A DNA stretch of 64,000 bases, from positions 62,001 to 126,000 of the forward strand of contig CAIQHB010000039.1 of assembly GCA_903871465.1 (NCBI GenBank), given 5' to 3'. Within the stretch, counting starts at the first letter, position 1; each line of letters starts with the position of its first letter. The position numbers and the translations under genes are program-made. Origin of the DNA: an uncultured Methanosarcinales archaeon. GTDB lineage: Archaea > Halobacteriota > Methanosarcinia > Methanotrichales > Methanotrichaceae. Shown here one piece after another: positions 480 to 62,188 of this stretch. Under the pieces are notes generated by a model. The model made no database searches and was not told the DNA's origin. It saw nothing but the letters and a program-made list of their open reading frames with translations.

Positions 480-1229
480 TTACCGTATTCCATATCGAGG
501 ATGCAAATCAACGCTCCTGCCACCGGGAATGCTGTAGCCCCCCTCAGATAGGCCGTCTCCTCGATCCTTGCGGCCAACTGCCGAATTATCTAACTCGCCG
601 TAATAGTTTTTGTCCCATAAGTTCAATCCATCGTCGAATGCGTCCAGCGAATTCCCTTCCAGGCTGTTGTTGCAAATGGTATTGCCGATAGCCTTCTCCA
701 GACGGATGCCGTAGCCTAAATTTCTGCAAACTGCATTGTCGAGAATGCTGTTGTTCTTGACGCCTACCAGGAGAATTCCGTTAAAATTGTTGCTAACGTC
801 ATTTTTGGTTATCCGATTTCCTTTGGATAGAACCTTGATTCCTGCCTCGGCAAGGGATTCGGAGGGCCAGCTACCTGCATTAACAATCTTGAAGCCCTCT
901 ACCGTGATGCCGTCCGCCAGCAGAGTGACGGCACTGCCGCTGGCGGTGGCATCCAAGACAGGCATCATTTGACCGCGCAAAATTATGGATTTATCTACTC
1001 GGATGTGCTCGCAGTATGTTCCTTCCGATACCAGAACCACGTCACCTGTACGGGCCATGAATATTGCGGCCTGGAGGCTGTCGTCCGGTCCGACGGTGAG
1101 CGTTTTGGCATCAGCAGATAATGCAAAGAGCAATAGCAGAAGAAGGACACATATAATGCGCCCAGGGATTGCTATTCTCGGATCGCGAACACCGCAATGA
1201 GCACTTCGTTCGTGAACGTCTCTGAACAT
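480..1229 (-). CDS. NosD-like right-handed beta-helix secreted protein
   Basis: A 249-residue protein with a hydrophobic signal segment at about residues 28-41 (ICVLLLLLLFALSADA) and then a TLTVGPDDSLQAAI start, the usual opening of methanogen secreted PbH1/NosD-type proteins. Repeats rich in N and G (GIKVLSKGNRITKNDVSNN, GILLVGVKNNSILDN, GIRLEKAIGNTICNN) are parallel beta-helix rungs at about residues 127-200. The end (NYYGELD, then IPGGRSVDLHP) matches the NosD C-terminal signature. It is short for the family, with few rungs. Surface or carbohydrate-related binding is inferred. The annotated ATG leaves about 25 polar residues before the signal segment; I see no better start in frame. Confidence 0.8.
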   Translation of the reverse strand: MFRDVHERSAHCGVRDPRIAIPGRIICVLLLLLLFALSADAKTLTVGPDDSLQAAIFMARTGDVVLVSEGTYCEHIRVDKSIILRGQMMPVLDATASGSAVTLLADGITVEGFKIVNAGSWPSESLAEAGIKVLSKGNRITKNDVSNNFNGILLVGVKNNSILDNAVCRNLGYGIRLEKAIGNTICNNSLEGNSLDAFDDGLNLWDKNYYGELDNSAVGRKDRGDGLSEGGYSIPGGRSVDLHPRYGIR

Positions 1230-1354
1230 TCATCTTGATAGTTCCCTTCGAATCGTAAGTACCTATCGATATTCCGCGCGACGTGTTTAAGGATTGAACA
1301 ACCATTTTTTGCCGCCGATAGTTTGATCTCATCCTTTTATCCAACCAATGATAG

Positions 1355-2149
1355 ATGTCTGGAGATCTCGCCGTGGTCATGGACGTAGCAGGTACAATCT
1401 TGATGATGTACCGCGTGGCCAAAGATATCGGTCGAGGAGTCATTCTTGAGAAGATTGTTACCTGGGAGCTGATCATGGAGAAGAAAGGCCGGGCCCTTGT
1501 GGTGCCTCAGATGGATCCGGATCTCGTCGTCTCCAGTAGACCCGACGACCTGCTGGGCTCACTTGTCCAGGGCCGGGAGGAGTGCGTGGAGATAAGCTGT
1601 TCCAGCAGTCATATCTCGAGAGATGAGGTTCTCGGCATCTTGGGCCGCTCTCAAGTCAGAGTTCGCGAACTGCAGGAGGTATATCTGGCGGTAAGAGCCA
1701 GGTGCCCGGGCATCTATCGAACTACGGGCATGATAGTGGACCGGGATCTGCATGAAATAGCCTACACATTGAGCACGGGTGGCGCCCCTTTTCCGGGATT
1801 GAGGAATGTCCTGCTAGATCTGGAAAACCTTGGTGCGGACGTCTATGTGGCTTCTGGAGACAGCATGCGCAGCCTTACAAGCCTCAAGGAATACGGCATA
1901 GACTTGTCGCGAATCCATTCCGCCGCCAGCCCGCGACGGAAAAAGGAGATCGTAATGGATCTGAAGAAGAAATACCGTCTAGTGGTGATGGTTGGTGACG
2001 GCCTGAACGATCTTTATGCTTTGAGGGCAGCGGACCTTGCTATCTTGACGGTACAGCAGGATACCCGCCCCGCCCTAAAATTACGCCAGGCTGCGAATGA
2101 GATCATAAGGAACATTCAAGAATTGCCTGAAATTGTAAAGAGAATCTGA
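1355..2149 (+). CDS. HAD-superfamily phosphatase, soluble P-type-ATPase-like
   Basis: This 264-residue protein carries HAD motifs in order: DVAGT at residues 10-14 (nucleophile D10), an SGD motif II near 167-169, a basic stretch PRRKKE near 193-198, and GDGLND at 214-219, which binds Mg2+. The second Asp of the usual DxDx(T/V) motif is Ala, as in P-type ATPase phosphorylation domains and some phosphonatase-like members, so hydrolysis chemistry may be atypical. Methanogens carry a conserved family with this arrangement; the substrate is unknown. A pyrimidine-rich TTTTAT element at about 1336-1341 sits close to the ATG, so the mRNA may be leaderless. It is divergent from the NosD-like gene. Confidence 0.8.
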   Translation: MSGDLAVVMDVAGTILMMYRVAKDIGRGVILEKIVTWELIMEKKGRALVVPQMDPDLVVSSRPDDLLGSLVQGREECVEISCSSSHISRDEVLGILGRSQVRVRELQEVYLAVRARCPGIYRTTGMIVDRDLHEIAYTLSTGGAPFPGLRNVLLDLENLGADVYVASGDSMRSLTSLKEYGIDLSRIHSAASPRRKKEIVMDLKKKYRLVVMVGDGLNDLYALRAADLAILTVQQDTRPALKLRQAANEIIRNIQELPEIVKRI

Positions 2150-2174
2150 ATCAATCATTTTAGAAATATTTATG

Positions 2175-2221
2175 CCAGCGTAGTCTGACAGTTTGGAGAA
2201 AGGTATATATACCAGCGTAGT
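2175..2221. repeat. Direct repeat of CCAGCGTAGT upstream of the coiled-coil/winged-helix gene
   Basis: CCAGCGTAGT occurs at 2175-2184 and again at 2212-2221, 37 bp apart. The match extends to 14 bp with one mismatch (TATGCCAGCGTAGT, TATACCAGCGTAGT). The copies lie about 75-120 bp upstream of the gene at 2296, which encodes a DNA-binding type C-terminus, so they may be its operators. That role is inferred. Confidence 0.4.
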
Positions 2222-2295
2222 GCACCCATGATCGGCAACCTTTTAATTCGCTTCGAAATGAGACCGAACTAGAAGATACTAGGAGTAGCCAATAA

Positions 2296-2850
2296 ATGTT
2301 CGAAGAGCTTTTAGAGCTATACAAAACAAAGGCCGAAGAGATTGAAAAAGAACGAAAAGAAGCGCATGGCATGTTTATGCTCGTTTCAGCCATCGAAAAA
2401 ATATCCAGGGAGATCGACTCGAAGAAGAGCGACGTGGAACTTCTGGGTAGGCTGATTGATCAGGTTGATCGCCTTTCCAAAGAGGTAGCCGACCTGAAGA
2501 GCCAGCTTCGCACCAGACAGGGGCGACAGGCGCCGGTCCAAGAAACAAGTTCAGGTGATGGAAAAGCCTTAGATAACCATGCACGATCACTCATAGATAT
2601 CATGGCGGAGAGGCCGGGGCGATACACTACCAGCGAGCTGGTGGATATGCTGGGACTGAATAAAACAACAGTCATAAGCGTGATGAAACGCGCCCTGGAG
2701 CTGGACCCGAAACATGTCAAGATGAGCCAAGGAACTCGACGCAAACTTTATCTGGCTTATATATCCGAAGACGAGGCACAGATAGCGGAAACCACACCCG
2801 GATCGGGCGAATCAGACAGGGCGAAGCTTGAGCTCATGGCCATGACATAA
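2296..2850 (+). CDS. Coiled-coil protein with C-terminal winged-helix domain
   Basis: The N-terminal part (residues 1-75) is almost purely charged and helical with heptad-like Leu/Ile spacing, ending in IDQVDRLSKEVADLKSQL, a predicted coiled coil. After a Gln/Gly/Ser linker, residues about 95-155 (ARSLIDIMAERPGRYTTSEL, VDMLGLNKTTVISVMKRALE, then KLYLAY) resemble a winged helix with recognition helix NKTTVISVMKRAL. Function is unknown; a dimeric DNA-binding or chromatin protein is the simplest reading. A TTTTAAT element near 2240 and the AGGAG sequence at about 2280 support the ATG at 2296. It has no operon partner. Confidence 0.75.
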   Translation: MFEELLELYKTKAEEIEKERKEAHGMFMLVSAIEKISREIDSKKSDVELLGRLIDQVDRLSKEVADLKSQLRTRQGRQAPVQETSSGDGKALDNHARSLIDIMAERPGRYTTSELVDMLGLNKTTVISVMKRALELDPKHVKMSQGTRRKLYLAYISEDEAQIAETTPGSGESDRAKLELMAMT

Positions 2851-3195
2851 GATCCAAAAAGTGTCAACATTCTATAAATTCGTGCGTTGTTGAGGGCTGG
2901 CGATCGATGGACCCGCGCAAGAGCTTGGCCTACTGCCTGCCTTTTTCATCGTTAGAAGATGAGACAGTGTCGGGAAGCGGAAACAAATCCCCCCGCGTTC
3001 CATGGAACTCAATCAGACCGCCCTCCGGGAAGCTGACGGTTGGGGAGCCGTTTGCCGGAGATTTTAGGCATATCCAATGCATACGATTTTGACATTTCTA
3101 ACCGAAGGAAGTTTTCAGTGAGTTTCCGATACAATTTTTCAGTAACCTTTGCCCGACGATGAAAAAAGAAAAGAGCGCCGAAGAGGATTCCGGTC
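2851..3195. other. Intergenic region without a supported gene
   Basis: This stretch separates the winged-helix gene from the convergent COG1361 gene. A 61-codon open frame at 2907-3092 has no ribosome binding site and an implausible composition. I see no RNA gene and only weak inverted repeats. Confidence 0.5.
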
Positions 3196-4248
3196 TCAGG
3201 CCTTCTTCGGTTTTCTTCTGTACATGTACCCTCCGGCCGCGACTATGATTATGAGAATGACGATCGCCGGCAAGAGCAGAGAAGCTGTTGCAGCCTTAAC
3301 CGAAACCGGGATCTTCATGCTCTCCGAGATAACGGTATCGCCGTTGATGTCAGTATATTTGATCTCGCTATTTATGCCATAACCTTTTGGCGTCGCATCG
3401 GAGTCCACGTCGATCCTGAAGACGACGGTCTTCTCTTCACCAGGACCAAGAGCCCCAATGTAAGCCTGGTCGTCAGTGGAAGAGAATGGCTTGAATATGG
3501 ACAGCCTTGCCACCGCATCACTGATGGGATCGTCGCCGATATTCTTGTATGTGGCTTCGACCGGCATCTTCTTGTCACCTGCAGAAAGATTGGCTGTGGC
3601 GTTTATTATTACGAAGTCGGCCTGCTTCTTGACAACGATGATGATGGGTATCGTCTGATTCGCCTTCTGGTAGATGTAGGAGACTCTATAGTTTACGAGA
3701 GTTGGCGAGCCTCCGCTGGTTGAAAGGCCTGATGCATAAACGCGAACGTTATCCTGGTAGTCGTAAGACAGGTTCAGACCGATGGTATAAATTCCCGCGG
3801 GAGCGTGCTCTCCAATCTTGATGGTGAACTTCAAGGGCGATTGGGTCTTATCTCCCGACTTTAGGGATTGCACTACCTGATCGCCGGATTTTACGTCGAC
3901 CTCAGGATTATTGGACCTCAGGCTTGCCGTAATTCCGAGCGCTGTGGTCTTCTTGTACTCTTCTTGCAACTCGCTATTTGCCAGAGCGAACTCTTTAGGG
4001 TTCTGAGGTGTTTGATCCTCGTCAAAACCCAATGTCCTTCCATAGTTGGTCAAATCCACGTATAGAGAAACAGTATCCCCACGCTGGAACTCATCAGTCC
4101 CGGCAACGCTGGCAGAGATATTCGGACCGCCGTACATGGTATAGTAGTTGTCTCCGCCCAGCTCAAAGGGAATGTATGTGTTTTGAGCCTGAACAGCAGC
4201 GATCAAAGCGAATAGGCAAACGGCAATAAAGGCAATTTTAAGTCTCAT
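3196..4248 (-). CDS. COG1361-type S-layer-like membrane-anchored protein, RND partner
   Basis: The 350-residue protein has a signal peptide (MRLKIAFIAVCLFALIAAVQAQ), a long extracellular part with Ig-like or CARDB-like beta domains (about 40-170 and 210-310), and a C-terminal membrane helix (LLLPAIVILIIIVAAGGYMY) followed by a basic tail RRKPKKA. This is the organisation of archaeal COG1361 proteins. Its ATG lies inside the last codons of the RND exporter (11-nt overlap, 4238-4248), so translation is probably coupled. Such pairs occur in methanogens, and the protein may act outside the membrane as an accessory subunit of the exporter, which is an inference. Confidence 0.85.
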   Translation of the reverse strand: MRLKIAFIAVCLFALIAAVQAQNTYIPFELGGDNYYTMYGGPNISASVAGTDEFQRGDTVSLYVDLTNYGRTLGFDEDQTPQNPKEFALANSELQEEYKKTTALGITASLRSNNPEVDVKSGDQVVQSLKSGDKTQSPLKFTIKIGEHAPAGIYTIGLNLSYDYQDNVRVYASGLSTSGGSPTLVNYRVSYIYQKANQTIPIIIVVKKQADFVIINATANLSAGDKKMPVEATYKNIGDDPISDAVARLSIFKPFSSTDDQAYIGALGPGEEKTVVFRIDVDSDATPKGYGINSEIKYTDINGDTVISESMKIPVSVKAATASLLLPAIVILIIIVAAGGYMYRRKPKKA

Positions 4249-17742: not shown

Positions 17743-18426
17743 ATGGATTTGAATTTTATAGAGAGGATGCCTACAGGAATTCCAGGTTTGGACGATATGA
17801 TTGAGGGTGGGCTTCCCATACCGTCCCTCATTCTTGTGGCAGGCGACGCGGGGGCAGGTAAGACTACATTTTGCACCCAGTTTCTCTGCAAAGGCGCAGA
17901 TCGAGGCGAGCACGGGCTCTACCTCCTAACTTTCGGCGGACCGCCTGATCTGCTGTTCAATTTTGCCTCCAGTTACGAATTTGTGAAGAGAACCTATTTC
18001 GAGAAGGAGATCTACTACGTAGAGCTGGAAGGCATAATAGAAAAGGCAGGAAGATCAAACGAAATTTTGGAAGCCGTCGAGATGCAGATCGATTTGGTCA
18101 AACCTGCTCGAATCGTCATGGAAAATCTATCCGTCCTGGAAGATGTGCTAAAGGACGAATACTGGCATTTCCTAATCAAGCTATCGCACCTGATCAAGAA
18201 AAAGGGATTGGTAGCATTGGTTGCAGAGGATGCATTGCCCGGAGCTCCGTACCCGATACCAATAGCACAAGTTGCAGACGGAATAATATTGCTGCATAAT
18301 GTTGAAATAAATTTAACAAGAATGAGGTCCATCGAGATCCTGAAGATGTGCGGCACCTCTCACCATTCAGGAAAGCGTGCAGTAGATATATCCGTTAAAG
18401 GAATAGTAATTTACCCGGGTTTATAG
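17743..18426 (+). CDS. KaiC/RecA-like ATPase, single domain
   Basis: The 227-residue protein has the KaiC opening TGIPGLDDMIEGGLPIPS, Walker A GDAGAGKTT (residues 34-42), and a RecA-like core with ARIVMENLSVLEDV near the Walker B strand, where the usual acidic residue is shifted. Such archaeal proteins are ATP-driven signalling or regulatory switches rather than recombinases. The gene ends 2 nt before a two-helix membrane protein, which overlaps a symporter fused to DUF835 domains. This linkage suggests that the ATPase works with the membrane complex. GAGGTGA lies directly before the ATG. Confidence 0.85.
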   Translation: MDLNFIERMPTGIPGLDDMIEGGLPIPSLILVAGDAGAGKTTFCTQFLCKGADRGEHGLYLLTFGGPPDLLFNFASSYEFVKRTYFEKEIYYVELEGIIEKAGRSNEILEAVEMQIDLVKPARIVMENLSVLEDVLKDEYWHFLIKLSHLIKKKGLVALVAEDALPGAPYPIPIAQVADGIILLHNVEINLTRMRSIEILKMCGTSHHSGKRAVDISVKGIVIYPGL

Positions 18427-18428
18427 CT

Positions 18429-18638
18429 ATGCCGCACTCCTACCACGATCTCCTCGGCCAGAAAGAGTTCTGGGCTTTTCTCTTCGTCTTAGGATGGCTG
18501 CTCCTCAACTGGCCCATGCTCACTCTGAGCTACGGCTACGCCGTGATGGGCATACCTCTGATATTGATATACATAACAGCAGTATGGCTCGCGATCATAA
18601 TCATGCTCTATCTATTCGACCGGGGGATTTACGAATGA
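18429..18638 (+). CDS. Small two-helix membrane protein, probable symporter subunit
   Basis: A 69-residue protein with two hydrophobic helices (about 14-33, FWAFLFVLGWLLLNWPML, and 38-62, IPLILIYITAVWLAIIIMLY). It starts 2 nt after the KaiC-like gene and its stop overlaps the symporter start as ATGA (18635-18638), so the three are very likely cotranslated. Small two-helix partners (DUF485, DUF997 or DUF3311 type) accompany many SSS-family transporters such as ActP and PutP relatives. By size and position this belongs to that group, though I cannot place it in one family. Confidence 0.8.
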   Translation: MPHSYHDLLGQKEFWAFLFVLGWLLLNWPMLTLSYGYAVMGIPLILIYITAVWLAIIIMLYLFDRGIYE

Positions 18639-21600
18639 TAGGACCCAATATTGCTCTGGCCGCCATGGTCCTTTATTTGCTGCTGCTCTTTGCCATAGCC
18701 AGATATGCCGACCACCGGAAACACTTAGGCAAAAGCATCGTTGCCAACCCCTATGTTTATGCCCTTTCTCTATGCGTCTATGTCTCAGCCTGGACCTTTT
18801 ACGGCTCGATAGGAAGAGCGGCTTCCACCGGCCTGGAATTCTTGCCCATTTACCTGGGACCCGTCTTAGCCATGACTTTGGGCTGGATAGTCATCAGAAA
18901 AATGATTTCCGTCTCAAAAGAGCACAGGCTCACATCCATCAGCGACTTTCTAAGCTTCCGCTACGGTCGAAGCTATGCCATAGGTGCCGTGGTAGCCGTA
19001 CTGAGCCTTATAATGGTGACACCCTATGTAGCCCTGCAGCTCATAGCCATCTCTACATCACTGGAGATCCTGAGCGGTCCTCACATATTGCTGGACTTCC
19101 CGGTGGAAAGTGAGCTCGTGGTGGCTCTTCTCCTGGGAGCCTTCGCGGTTATTTTCGGCGCACGTCATCTCGACCCCATGGAGCATCATGAGGGACTGAT
19201 CGCCGTTGTAGCTTTTGAATCCCTGGTCAAATTAGTGGCATTTCTCCTGGCGGGGCTTTTCGTCGCCTACGGCATCTTTGGAGGCTATGGAAATATATTG
19301 AGCCAGATGGTCGACCAGGCCAAGAACAATCCGGCGTATGCCGATCTCATTGATGTCAAGTATCCCCTCTGGTTCTCCCTGACTCTGATATCCTTCTTCG
19401 CAATTCTATTCTTGCCCAGACAGTTCCATGTCATGGTAGTGGAAAACTGCGAGGAGAAGCACCTCAAGAAGGCAATGTGGCTCTTTCCTCTCTATCTCCT
19501 ATTGATCAACCTATTCGTTCCGGCCATTGCCTGGGGAGGATTGCTCCTCAATACAGGAGGCCTGAAGGATGCCTTCATAATAACTATACCTTACACTCAT
19601 AATCAGGATTTACTTTCGCTCTTCGTCTTCATAGGAGGGACCTCGGCCGCCACCGCCATGATCCTGGTTGAATCCGTAGCTGTGGGCACTATGCTTCTCA
19701 ACGACCTGGAGTTGCCGTACATCTTGAGACATATAAAAAAGCAAAAAAATCTTGCCGATACTCTCCTCAACACTAGGAGATTAAACATACTTCTGGTGGT
19801 GCTCCTGGGGTATCTCTACTCGCGCGCTGTAAATTACCAGATACTGGCAGATATTGGCATCGTCTCTTTCCTGGCGGCCAGTCAGCTGGCACCTGCCGCC
19901 CTGGGAGGCCTGTACTGGAAGAGAGGCAACCGTCAAGGAGCCATGGCCGGGCTGGTATCCGGCTTCTTGCTGTGGACCTACACCGCCCTCATTCCTACAG
20001 TTGCCGGAAAGAGCGGTGTACTGGCAAATTTGGTCAGTGATGGACCCTTCGGCATTGCCTTCCTCAAGCCCACGGATCTCTTGGGCCTTGACCTGGACAA
20101 ATGGAGCAACTCCGTCTTCTGGACACTTCTTTTCAATTGCAGCCTGTACGTTCTCATATCGCTCCAGACGACGGCCAGTACAAAAGAATTGGCCATCGCC
20201 AAATGCTTCGTAGATAACTGCCATGAAGAGGCCCTGCCACCGGATAATGAACGACGGGTAATACGTCAGGGAACAGTTGAAGAGCTGGAGGCAACTCTGG
20301 CGCGCTACATAGGCGAGGAGACTGCAAAGACCCAGGTCAATGATTACTTGGAACATCTTGGCACCAGCCGGGAGAAGATTGAGACGAAGCAGCTCCTTGA
20401 GCTGTGGGATCAGTTCGAGAAGACGCTCACGGGCTCCGTAGGGTCTTCCGCTGCAAGGATGATAGTAGAAGATCAGGTGCCCGTAAAGCCGGTAAAGGAA
20501 GAAACGAAAGCAACGCTCCCAACGTATGATTTGAAGACGGGAAAGCTCTACGTAGTGCCTGAGATTGCCTATGAGGTCTTTACAGATCAGATCACCCATG
20601 GTATAGAGGGGCTATGCATAACCCATTATGCTCCTGAAGATGTGAGGCTTCGCTGGGGCTTCAAGGAGACGCCCATCATCAAGCTGAGCGATGAGAAGGG
20701 AAGCGATCGCTACATCTCCCCGCGAAATTTGCCGCTCCTTTTCATGACCATAAAAGCATTTGTCGAATCCAGCAAAAACAGCATTGTGCTCATTGACAGC
20801 ATTGAGCAGCTGGTGAAAGAGAATGAGGACCTGGTACCGGAGAGAGATATGCTGGACTTCGTCTACCAGATGGAGCTACTTGGCCATAAGACACATCTGA
20901 TACTGGCGGAGAAGCCGGAGTTTGTTCACATGCCCATGACATCCAGCGTCAACGAGGTCAAGGAGCTGCTCTTCTCTCTGGGCTCACTTTCTATGTATCT
21001 ATTCCGTCTCTTCTCGGAATCTATGCTCTCTAGTCTGAGCGAAGGAGTGAGAAAAGAGGTGGTAACAGCTGCCAACGAAGCAATAGCATCAGGCGAGTTA
21101 TTTGAGAGCACGGCCAGGGACGGGAAGACATGCGATGACTCCAGTGTGGTCTGTGAGCCGGATATGCAGGATGCTTTGCTTTCCTTGCCGCCTCTGAATG
21201 TCAGGTACGATTTGGTGCTGACAAGACGTGGCTTCTTCACGGCTCTGAGAAGGCTAGCCAGAATCATCAAAGCGCACGAACCCGCCTTTGACCATATCAA
21301 TGCCCTGCCAGGTCTCATGAAGAGCTACGGGCGGAGTCCCTATGAGATATCTCTCATCCCGGGAACAACTTACATCATTGAGGAAGAAAAGCCGCAAAAA
21401 ATCCTGGAGATCTTCAGCGAGCTGGTGATGCATGGCATGGAAGGCCTCTGCCTGAGCCGTTACAATCCCGAGACTCTGTATGAGAGGTATAATGTGCCGG
21501 AAGATACCGTTATATGGCTGACGCAAAAGAGCGAGCCGGGATACAGAACCGTGGACCCAACGAACTTCCCCCGCCTGAGCAGCGTGATATCCGATTTCCT

Positions 21601-21811
21601 TAACAGAGCGAACTATCCTCTTATCCTCCTGGAAGGCATGGGGTATCTCATTACTCAGAGCAATTACGAGACCGTACTCCGGTTCGTTCAATCCCAGAGA
21701 GATGAAATTGCCCTGAAGAATGCCATAATGCTGGTGCACATAGATCCACTGTCTCTGGACATAAAAGAGCTGCACCGATTGGCCAGCGAGATGGAGCATT
21801 TCAAGGTATGA
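18635..21811 (+). CDS. Sodium/solute symporter fused to two C-terminal DUF835 domains
   Basis: From the ATG at 18635 the protein has 1058 residues; a longer frame from 18494 would read through the preceding gene. Residues 1 to about 510 form an SSS-family transporter of 12-13 helices (YVSAWTFYGSIGRAASTGLE, LTSISDFLSFRYGRSYAIGA, LPRQFHVMVVENCEEKHL). A linker follows. DUF835 domains lie at about 629-770 (ITHGIEGLCITHYAPEDVR) and 900-1050 (VMHGMEGLCLSRYNPETLY). DUF835 is an archaeal domain often found in signalling proteins. The layout recalls bacterial SSS-histidine kinase sensors such as CbrA, so sensing coupled to transport is inferred. The transported solute is unknown; acetate is one possibility. 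Confidence 0.88.
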   Translation: MIGPNIALAAMVLYLLLLFAIARYADHRKHLGKSIVANPYVYALSLCVYVSAWTFYGSIGRAASTGLEFLPIYLGPVLAMTLGWIVIRKMISVSKEHRLTSISDFLSFRYGRSYAIGAVVAVLSLIMVTPYVALQLIAISTSLEILSGPHILLDFPVESELVVALLLGAFAVIFGARHLDPMEHHEGLIAVVAFESLVKLVAFLLAGLFVAYGIFGGYGNILSQMVDQAKNNPAYADLIDVKYPLWFSLTLISFFAILFLPRQFHVMVVENCEEKHLKKAMWLFPLYLLLINLFVPAIAWGGLLLNTGGLKDAFIITIPYTHNQDLLSLFVFIGGTSAATAMILVESVAVGTMLLNDLELPYILRHIKKQKNLADTLLNTRRLNILLVVLLGYLYSRAVNYQILADIGIVSFLAASQLAPAALGGLYWKRGNRQGAMAGLVSGFLLWTYTALIPTVAGKSGVLANLVSDGPFGIAFLKPTDLLGLDLDKWSNSVFWTLLFNCSLYVLISLQTTASTKELAIAKCFVDNCHEEALPPDNERRVIRQGTVEELEATLARYIGEETAKTQVNDYLEHLGTSREKIETKQLLELWDQFEKTLTGSVGSSAARMIVEDQVPVKPVKEETKATLPTYDLKTGKLYVVPEIAYEVFTDQITHGIEGLCITHYAPEDVRLRWGFKETPIIKLSDEKGSDRYISPRNLPLLFMTIKAFVESSKNSIVLIDSIEQLVKENEDLVPERDMLDFVYQMELLGHKTHLILAEKPEFVHMPMTSSVNEVKELLFSLGSLSMYLFRLFSESMLSSLSEGVRKEVVTAANEAIASGELFESTARDGKTCDDSSVVCEPDMQDALLSLPPLNVRYDLVLTRRGFFTALRRLARIIKAHEPAFDHINALPGLMKSYGRSPYEISLIPGTTYIIEEEKPQKILEIFSELVMHGMEGLCLSRYNPETLYERYNVPEDTVIWLTQKSEPGYRTVDPTNFPRLSSVISDFLNRANYPLILLEGMGYLITQSNYETVLRFVQSQRDEIALKNAIMLVHIDPLSLDIKELHRLASEMEHFKV

Positions 21812-21861: not shown

Positions 21862-22104
21862 ATGATTGAAGCTGGATTCGTGTTATTAATCATTGTCATA
21901 ATCTTCGGTGCATTCTTGATCCTGAGATCCATCAAGAACTTCATCATAAATGCAGTTGTGGGGCTAGTGATTCTTTTTCTTGCCAACCATGTTGCTGGCC
22001 TGGACATCGGTTACAGCTGGCTGGTAATATTGATCTGCGGCATCGGCGGGATCCTGGGCGCTTTCCTGGTCATCTTGCTACATTTTCTGGGCCTTGGATT
22101 TTAG
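21862..22104 (+). CDS. BofA-like small membrane protein
   Basis: An 80-residue protein with three hydrophobic helices (about 3-20, 28-45 and 52-77). The segment NFIINAVVGLVILFLANHVAG matches the core of the pro-sigma-K processing inhibitor BofA family, which in archaea has no sporulation role and no known function. CTTTTTAATAG at 21828-21838 is placed as a TATA box for a nearly leaderless transcript. It is monocistronic, convergent with cdc6. Confidence 0.75.
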   Translation: MIEAGFVLLIIVIIFGAFLILRSIKNFIINAVVGLVILFLANHVAGLDIGYSWLVILICGIGGILGAFLVILLHFLGLGF

Positions 22105-61201: not shown

Positions 61202-62188
61202 TCATTTACTTGCTACCTCTTCTATCGCCTGCAGCAATCCTCTCTCTCTTCTCATCTCGGGAAACAGGTCTCGAATTCTCGCCCTCGCTTTTTGGCCCCT
61301 TTCCATAGGCTCCTCCAATGCAGTGGCTATTGCCCTGGATGTTGCTATTGCGTCACCAAAAGGCACAAGAAAGCCTGTATCTCCCATGGCCGTGGGTATT
61401 CCATTGCGATCCGTGCCCACAGGAATGCATTCGCAGAGCATGGCTTCGCAGAGAGCATTGGGCAAGCCTTCGTAGGCTGAGAGCTGGCAATATACCTTAG
61501 AGCGCTGATAGTAGCCGAGAAGCTCCTCATCGGTGACAAACCCCGTGAACTCGATGTTATTTGGGGCAGACTCCTTTAGAGAATCCGCAGAATCGTCGAT
61601 CAGCTTTCCTATGAGCAAAAATTTCGTGTCCGGCAGGAGGGATGCTGTCCGAACAAATGTATCAAAGCCTTTTCTCTTGATGACGGAATGGCTTACATAG
61701 CCCACAGTTATGACCAGATTCTCTTTCGCCTGGCCGGGCACGAATTTATTATAATCATATCCGGTGGGCAGATAGTCTATATTGTGCCCATCGATTCCTG
61801 CATTCTTGATGGCATCCTCTTTCAGAGATGGATCAACCACCAGCACCCTGTCCGCATATTGCAGAGCTGATTTTGTGAGAAATTTCTTTGTCCAGCTCTG
61901 TGTGAATCGGCCGTAGTCTATCTCAGGGACGCGGGCAACGTCGAAACCGCCCACGATGATCATGGATTTCTTTCTCAGCAATTTAGAAAGCAGCACCGCG
62001 ACAAAGGCATGGCCTCCGGCAAACCATATCAGGGCGAGGTCGCACTTCGCAACAGCCTTCATCAATTTCACGGCGTCGCCGGGACACGAGAAGTTGACCT
62101 CTTCGACTTCATGGGCCTTGCAAATGATCTCGTAATCTCTCTTGATGAAGGAAGAAAATGAGGCGTAATACACAAAAGCAATCCTCAT
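61202..62188 (-). CDS. Family 4 glycosyltransferase
   Basis: The 328-residue protein has a shorter N-terminal half (AFVYYASFSSFIKRDYEIIC) with DLALIWFAGGHAFVAVLLSK, then VITVGYVSHSVIKRKGFDTF and YCQLSAYEGLPNALCEAMLC, the GT4 donor-site motif. Its ATG overlaps the stop of the upstream gene by 4 nt (62185-62188). The acceptor is unknown. Confidence 0.85.
   Translation of the reverse strand: MRIAFVYYASFSSFIKRDYEIICKAHEVEEVNFSCPGDAVKLMKAVAKCDLALIWFAGGHAFVAVLLSKLLRKKSMIIVGGFDVARVPEIDYGRFTQSWTKKFLTKSALQYADRVLVVDPSLKEDAIKNAGIDGHNIDYLPTGYDYNKFVPGQAKENLVITVGYVSHSVIKRKGFDTFVRTASLLPDTKFLLIGKLIDDSADSLKESAPNNIEFTGFVTDEELLGYYQRSKVYCQLSAYEGLPNALCEAMLCECIPVGTDRNGIPTAMGDTGFLVPFGDAIATSRAIATALEEPMERGQKARARIRDLFPEMRRERGLLQAIEEVASK

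Follow-up and report, generated by a model that had tools for sequence, protein, structure and literature searches.

We analysed a window of 64,000 nucleotides (nt; positions 62,001 to 126,000 of contig CAIQHB010000039.1, assembly GCA_903871465.1) from an uncultured archaeon of the family Methanotrichaceae, and all coordinates below are positions in this window. The subject is a locus on the plus strand, on contig C39 of the 3.13-Mb genome, where three open reading frames (ORFs) encode a KaiC-like P-loop protein (17743..18426, 227 amino acids (aa), PF06745 E=9e-33), a two-helix membrane protein (18429..18638, 69 aa) and a 1058-aa symporter-like protein (18635..21811). The ORFs lie where the original prediction, made from the sequence alone, had placed them, with a 2-nt gap between the first two and a 4-nt overlap (ATGA) between the last two; from this spacing we infer a single translated unit. 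A Pfam scan of the 1058-aa protein recovered the proposed combination of a symporter with two C-terminal DUF835 domains: SSF scored 35.6 bits against a cut-off of 22.8, and DUF835 matched in two stretches with 168.8 bits against 33.1. No match to HisKA, HATPase or PAS was found in it by the same scan. Two features had been missed previously, a STAC domain and a conserved stretch of ~140 aa that separates the two DUF835 domains, giving the layout SLC5-STAC-DUF835-(linker)-DUF835. We assign the protein, from its ORF, Pfam matches, orthologues and structural alignment, to the CbrA-type SLC5/STAC transceptor family as an archaeal member; it is placed outside the kinase branch since SSF and DUF835 are its only domains above cut-off.

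Residues 13–618 aligned end to end with the cryo-EM chain of the Pseudomonas CbrA SLC5-STAC module (PDB 10ed_A; E=9e-90, 36% identity over 577 aligned positions), and identity to proteobacterial SLC5/STAC kinases reached ~44% over residues 1–615. CbrA, previously invoked as an analogy for a transporter that serves as sensor input, turned out to be a true homologue, and homology of both the SLC5 and the STAC part to the CbrA-type module is near certain. The full-length alignment delimits an SLC5 transporter domain of the 13-transmembrane-helix CbrA type (18635..20164, end approximate) and, because it runs through to residue 618, identifies the region past the last transmembrane helix as STAC (20264..20482, ~aa 544–616). 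A profile search matched this region to CbrA STAC with E=1e-21; the profile (alignment A5) includes the CbrA row, and the pairwise 10ed_A alignment reaches STAC independently of it. In the CbrA structure STAC is docked on the cytoplasmic face, where it occupies a pocket at the base of SLC5, transport is proton-driven, and Lys196 occupies the Na2 site (PMC13022988). By residue mapping the counterpart of this residue is Lys199 (codon 19229..19231), a lysine in 11/11 archaeal rows and in all SLC5/STAC rows compared (Ekhidna L063 excluded), and a lysine in the Na2 site makes proton coupling of the archaeal transporter likely. We also considered a Na+/acetate symporter that has a small subunit, as in the ActP-YjcH or VC_2705 type, and rejected it, the similarity being weak and partial against the end-to-end match to CbrA.

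The CbrA pocket residues Y51, S53, W55, F71, Y75 and F406 are retained in the archaeal protein, and others are changed (CbrA to archaeal: A56T, C74I, V78P, F248S, S251A, H257R). The changed residues disagree with CbrA and agree with the bacterial rows L106 and L107, which we call CrbS-like from gene order alone (a large PAS kinase and a convergent response regulator). Since acetate use is under the control of CrbS/MxtR systems (PMC9100948, PMC8402216), this agreement makes a small carboxylate a plausible substrate; tentatively, the pocket would fit such a compound and not one of the histidine type, with acetate as the leading candidate. Acetate had also been suggested by the original prediction, and the pocket residues are compatible with it; against it, most relatives also encode an AceP-family permease dedicated to acetate (PMC10598746), which we found in 37/50 relatives including this genome, and which is missing from some nearly complete genomes.

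The two-helix gene lies directly upstream of the transceptor gene in 46/46 family loci that extend that far, and the two overlap by 4 nt in 42 of these 46. Homologues of the small gene precede SLC5/STAC genes in Wenzhouxiangella, Xanthobacter and Ekhidna (L061–L063; tblastn 3e-8 to 6e-5), in Azoarcus (alignment A3) and in Paracoccus, where there is again a 4-nt overlap. In P. putida, the CbrX gene shares 17 nt with cbrA and its translation is coupled to that of cbrA (PMC6591292), and the CbrA structure shows CbrX physically bound (PMC13022988). A sequence search of the PDB with the two-helix protein returned no CbrX chain and no direct match to P. putida CbrX was obtained, for which reason we label it the CbrX counterpart. 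Position, topology and homology to the other bacterial upstream genes nevertheless argue with high confidence for CbrX-like homology.

The C-terminal half holds DUF835 domain 1 (20567..20827; PF05763 49.7 bits, cut-off 33.1), the helical inter-domain region (20930..21346) and DUF835 domain 2 (21386..21793; 127.7 bits), the best-conserved part of this half. The inter-domain region is conserved across 13 orthologues, has no Pfam match and is partly disordered in the structure model; within it, an (L/R)RxFFxAxRxLAR-like helix is conserved and one loop is poorly predicted. Across the family, the STAC domain and the two DUF835 domains evolve under purifying selection. Galperin and colleagues count DUF835, as an inactivated KaiC (iKaiC), among the output domains of archaeal response regulators (PMC5847659), and the P-loop motif GxxxxGK[ST] was not present in the DUF835 sequences here. 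For the relation between DUF835 and KaiC we used structure models instead of profile-profile comparison. The C-terminal half was modelled with a predicted local distance difference test (pLDDT) score of 81. DUF835-2 modelled alone (pLDDT 89) adopted a RecA fold that matched RecA, RAD51, RadA and FlaH with probability 1.00 and template modelling (TM) scores of 0.5–0.6, and the best matches of the tandem DUF835 model were two-domain KaiC proteins (E=4e-7). We conclude with high confidence that the histidine kinase of the bacterial proteins is replaced by tandem P-loop-less KaiC/RecA folds.

The transceptor gene was present in 50/50 genomes of the family, which in our set makes up the whole order (45 complete copies, 5 truncated at contig ends), the orthologues showing 57–81% identity; the gene order, for which restriction to this strain had been considered beforehand, is conserved across the family. 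In a scan of the class, 47/238 genomes gave hits at E<=1e-30, all of them Methanotrichaceae, as were all 15 positive genomes in a phylum sample of 394; the transceptor was not found outside Methanotrichaceae in the sampled class (238) or phylum (394). In a tree with few bacterial rows, where CbrA is a long branch and Ekhidna L063 was left out, the archaeal rows formed one clade (support 99/100) beside proteobacterial non-CbrA rows. Placement of this clade within the CrbS branch was unsupported, the clade being sister to all non-CbrA rows. The simplest reading would be a single acquisition of the two-helix/SLC5-STAC pair from Proteobacteria, followed by replacement of the kinase, with the direction of transfer taken from the distribution. 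Among the papers available to the search, none described an SLC5-STAC-DUF835 fusion, in line with the earlier view of an undescribed signalling complex. Conserved neighbours of the locus are AspS and a BofA-like gene; the latter encodes a membrane protein (21862–22104, PF07441 E=1.5e-9), starts 50 nt downstream and adjoins the transceptor gene in most genera.

The KaiC-like gene is the lineage-variable member of the locus. Its Walker A motif, GDAGAGKTT (17842..17868), reads as intact and is present in every orthologue with a complete N-terminus. Alignment with solved KaiC chains and with in-genome KaiC proteins revealed that in this genus F-G-G (17932..17940) stands at the position of the catalytic F-E-E, and that the Walker B sequence IDS has become MEN (Asp to Glu); deeper genera retain one Glu and the Walker B Asp. 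Because the catalytic glutamates and the Walker B aspartate are missing, activity is doubtful in this genus and calling the protein an ATPase is not safe. The gene was found in 29/50 family genomes and was absent from 16/43 testable loci; in every checked locus it occupies the same place, 1–5 nt from the two-helix gene and once with a 4-nt overlap. Its presence changes 7 times on the transceptor tree (at least 6 changes are forced by supported branches), compared with 13 in shuffles. Between the close relatives G031 and G028 the difference is a clean deletion in G031 that leaves the last KaiC codons and lies within a 15-kb contig stretch, which makes an assembly error unlikely. Scars of the KaiC 3′ end persist elsewhere too: HAVDISAKGIITYPGL in G016 and decayed tails in genus g8. 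This pattern is best read as an ancestral KaiC gene lost ~7 times while the transceptor and the CbrX-like gene stayed. Repeated losses that leave 3′ gene scars rule out KaiC as an obligate partner of the transceptor, and since the DUF835 domains stayed under purifying selection through them, the adjacent KaiC is not essential. The original prediction had kinase parts replaced by DUF835 and a separate RecA-like ATPase: the first half holds, kinase domains being absent, and the second is weakened, the KaiC-like protein being dispensable and its catalytic residues degenerate here.

A TATA-like sequence, GTAGATATATCC, lies at 18382–18393 within the KaiC 3′ end, and a similar one has persisted in the KaiC remnants of G016 and of genus g8; it may mark an internal promoter of the two-helix/transporter pair. 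Omega for DUF835-2 was 0.18 in KaiC-less g8 and 0.02 in KaiC-bearing g9, with 0.14 and 0.07 for SLC5, which in this single comparison gives a hint of relatively relaxed constraint on DUF835-2 after loss of a partner. A universal KaiC (L163 4804–5532, genome C2) has a copy in every checked family genome and adjoins glycogen-synthase-like and GT4 glycosyltransferase genes both in this genome and in G016; it is a possible partner of the transceptor in genomes that have lost the local KaiC.

Among DUF835 genes outside this operon, a same-strand KaiC gene was found within 1.3 kb in 12/13 loci of the class; these loci are largely orthologous (~2 gene families plus this operon), and the vanishing chance figure for the count is not a probability. 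The other DUF835 proteins either have the architecture REC-PAS-PAS-DUF835 or are encoded in linkage with genes for REC and histidine kinase proteins and for a PadR regulator. In the second DUF835 locus of this genome (L154, C46:1–9000, 855–4203) REC, PAS-histidine kinase, DUF835, PadR and KaiC genes follow in a row, the PadR and KaiC genes overlapping, and DUF835 with KaiC is kept in several relatives. KaiC partners of the HK- or REC-linked DUF835 genes (HK, histidine kinase; L158 3042–3842, L160 1981–2682, L154 3502–4203, L161 4572–5261) share an unusual P-loop, G..GTLKSG or GSLKSG, and have Glu-Gln where KaiC has Glu-Glu, and possibly represent a DUF835-specific KaiC subtype. The shared pattern is that DUF835 goes together with a sensory input and a KaiC partner, and in the present operon the transceptor supplies that input.

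Among the closest known systems, Pseudomonas CbrX-CbrA (PDB 10ed, PMC13022988, PMC6591292) shares with the archaeal locus the 13-helix SLC5 domain, the Na2-site lysine, STAC and an overlapping upstream two-helix gene, but has a PAS-DHp-CA kinase half where the archaeal protein has two DUF835 domains; the latter also has changed pocket residues and no adjacent response regulator. The SLC5/STAC hybrid kinases CrbS/MxtR and RpuS (PMC9100948, PMC8402216) use the same SLC5-STAC input, and it is with CrbS-like candidates that the archaeal pocket agrees best; unlike those systems, the archaeal locus is without a kinase, receiver or LuxR regulator, and its role in acetate is putative. The highest identity (~44% over 1–615) and an upstream two-helix gene are shared with an operon of Paracoccus, Wenzhouxiangella and Xanthobacter, in which, however, the SLC5-STAC protein ends in HisKA-HATPase and whose other genes are absent in the archaeon. 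This uncharacterised operon (L102 3203–10103, L061 4788–11886) comprises CBS-DUF294 nucleotidyltransferase, two-helix, SLC5-STAC-HK, response regulator and exonuclease genes; in P. putida, the targets of the acetate system include a CBS protein, PP_0354 (PMC8402216). An Azoarcus plasmid protein (L103 4929–8120), with a two-helix gene upstream, continues from SLC5-STAC into GGDEF and EAL, a cyclic di-GMP version of the transceptor, so that bacterial SLC5-STAC modules themselves vary in output (HK, hybrid HK, GGDEF-EAL). REC-PAS-PAS-DUF835 or iKaiC proteins of Methanosarcinia (PMC5847659; L158–L160) share the DUF835 output end and a nearby KaiC gene, and differ in having REC/PAS or HK input, one DUF835 and another KaiC subtype (GTLKSG, E-Q). 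With archaeal KaiC-family ATPases (PF06745) the KaiC-like protein of the window shares the KaiC core and an intact Walker A; it differs in that, in this genus, both the catalytic Glu pair and the Walker B Asp are gone, and in the repeated deletion of its gene.

Taken as a whole, the locus is best explained, with a probability of about 0.5, as a CbrA-type transceptor and CbrX-like partner of proteobacterial origin whose output was changed to a DUF835-to-KaiC type. Substrate occupancy or transport would move the SLC5 domain, STAC at its cytoplasmic face would relay the change onward, and the tandem DUF835 platform would present or assemble KaiC-family proteins that carry the signal on: the dedicated KaiC where it is kept, another KaiC or other partner where it is lost. 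Output through KaiC-family proteins is our best guess because other DUF835 genes nearly always adjoin a KaiC gene, and we consider it an even bet. A more specific version, in which tandem P-loop-less KaiC domains co-assemble with nucleotide-bound KaiC so that nucleotide-gated ring assembly replaces the His-Asp phosphorelay and reports acetate supply in obligate aceticlastic methanogens, is speculative and rather unlikely as a package. Several observations weigh against a DUF835-to-KaiC output and the reading as a whole. The KaiC catalytic residues are degenerate in this genus, and the DUF835 domains are still under purifying selection after KaiC loss (omega ~0.17–0.18, g8). The global TM score of the tandem model to KaiC is ~0.25, the domain placement being different or unmodelled, and hhalign of KaiC against the DUF835 half gave a probability of 0.1%, uninformative with such shallow profiles (effective number of sequences, Neff, near 2). 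The DUF835-KaiC proximity count does not represent independent events, and the substrate assignment has residues and gene order as its sole basis.

A substrate-gated transporter, as also proposed in the original prediction, would send no signal out of the complex: the DUF835 pair, with or without KaiC, would tune uptake through STAC, for example to the adenylate level. Such reverse control is physically possible given the seat of STAC in the SLC5-base pocket of CbrA (PMC13022988); the operon has no transcription factor or response regulator, and a KaiC-like protein with Walker A and without catalytic residues is what one expects of a nucleotide sensor. We nonetheless judge it unlikely, as related bacterial modules feed signalling domains (HK, hybrid HK, GGDEF-EAL), DUF835 elsewhere is combined with REC, PAS or HK proteins, and growth on histidine depends on the kinase half of CbrA (PMC13022988). 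Of similarly low probability is an output that consists of the DUF835 pair itself, acting as a scaffold for unlinked partners, with the adjacent KaiC a dispensable accessory with its own role. Universality of the transceptor and CbrX-like gene through ~7 scarred KaiC losses would follow naturally from it, as would the continued conservation of tandem DUF835 in KaiC-less G011 and G009 (g8) and G016, where no second DUF835 locus was found. It fits less well with an ancestral KaiC in a constant place beside the two-helix gene, with the KaiC genes that accompany other DUF835 genes and, as a hint from one comparison, with the relatively weaker constraint on DUF835-2 in KaiC-less g8 than in g9.

Last, the protein might simply import nutrients in the ordinary way, its C-terminal extension being mere decoration and the small gene serving only to couple translation, and P. 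putida offers two points in favour of this: translation of CbrX, not its sequence, was reported to matter for CbrA production (PMC6591292), and CbrX was dispensable for growth on histidine (PMC13022988). An extension of this kind is hard to reconcile with the purifying selection seen across the family on STAC and on each DUF835 domain, with DUF835-2 being the best-conserved part of the C-terminal half and with the place of the transporter in the sensor-linked SLC5/STAC branch, not among plain symporters; we regard it as very improbable.

The Methanotrichaceae, major producers of methane, grow on acetate, and KaiC-type signalling is thought to be central in archaea. The locus we describe would represent a bacterial transporter-sensor captured by archaea, its output rewired from histidine kinase to KaiC type, a previously unreported wiring of nutrient sensing. 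It could serve to find out what is transmitted by STAC and which roles DUF835 and archaeal KaiC proteins have, and the lineages that have repeatedly lost KaiC in nature are ready material for comparison. Being universal in Methanotrichaceae, the transceptor may be the sensor of their only energy substrate.

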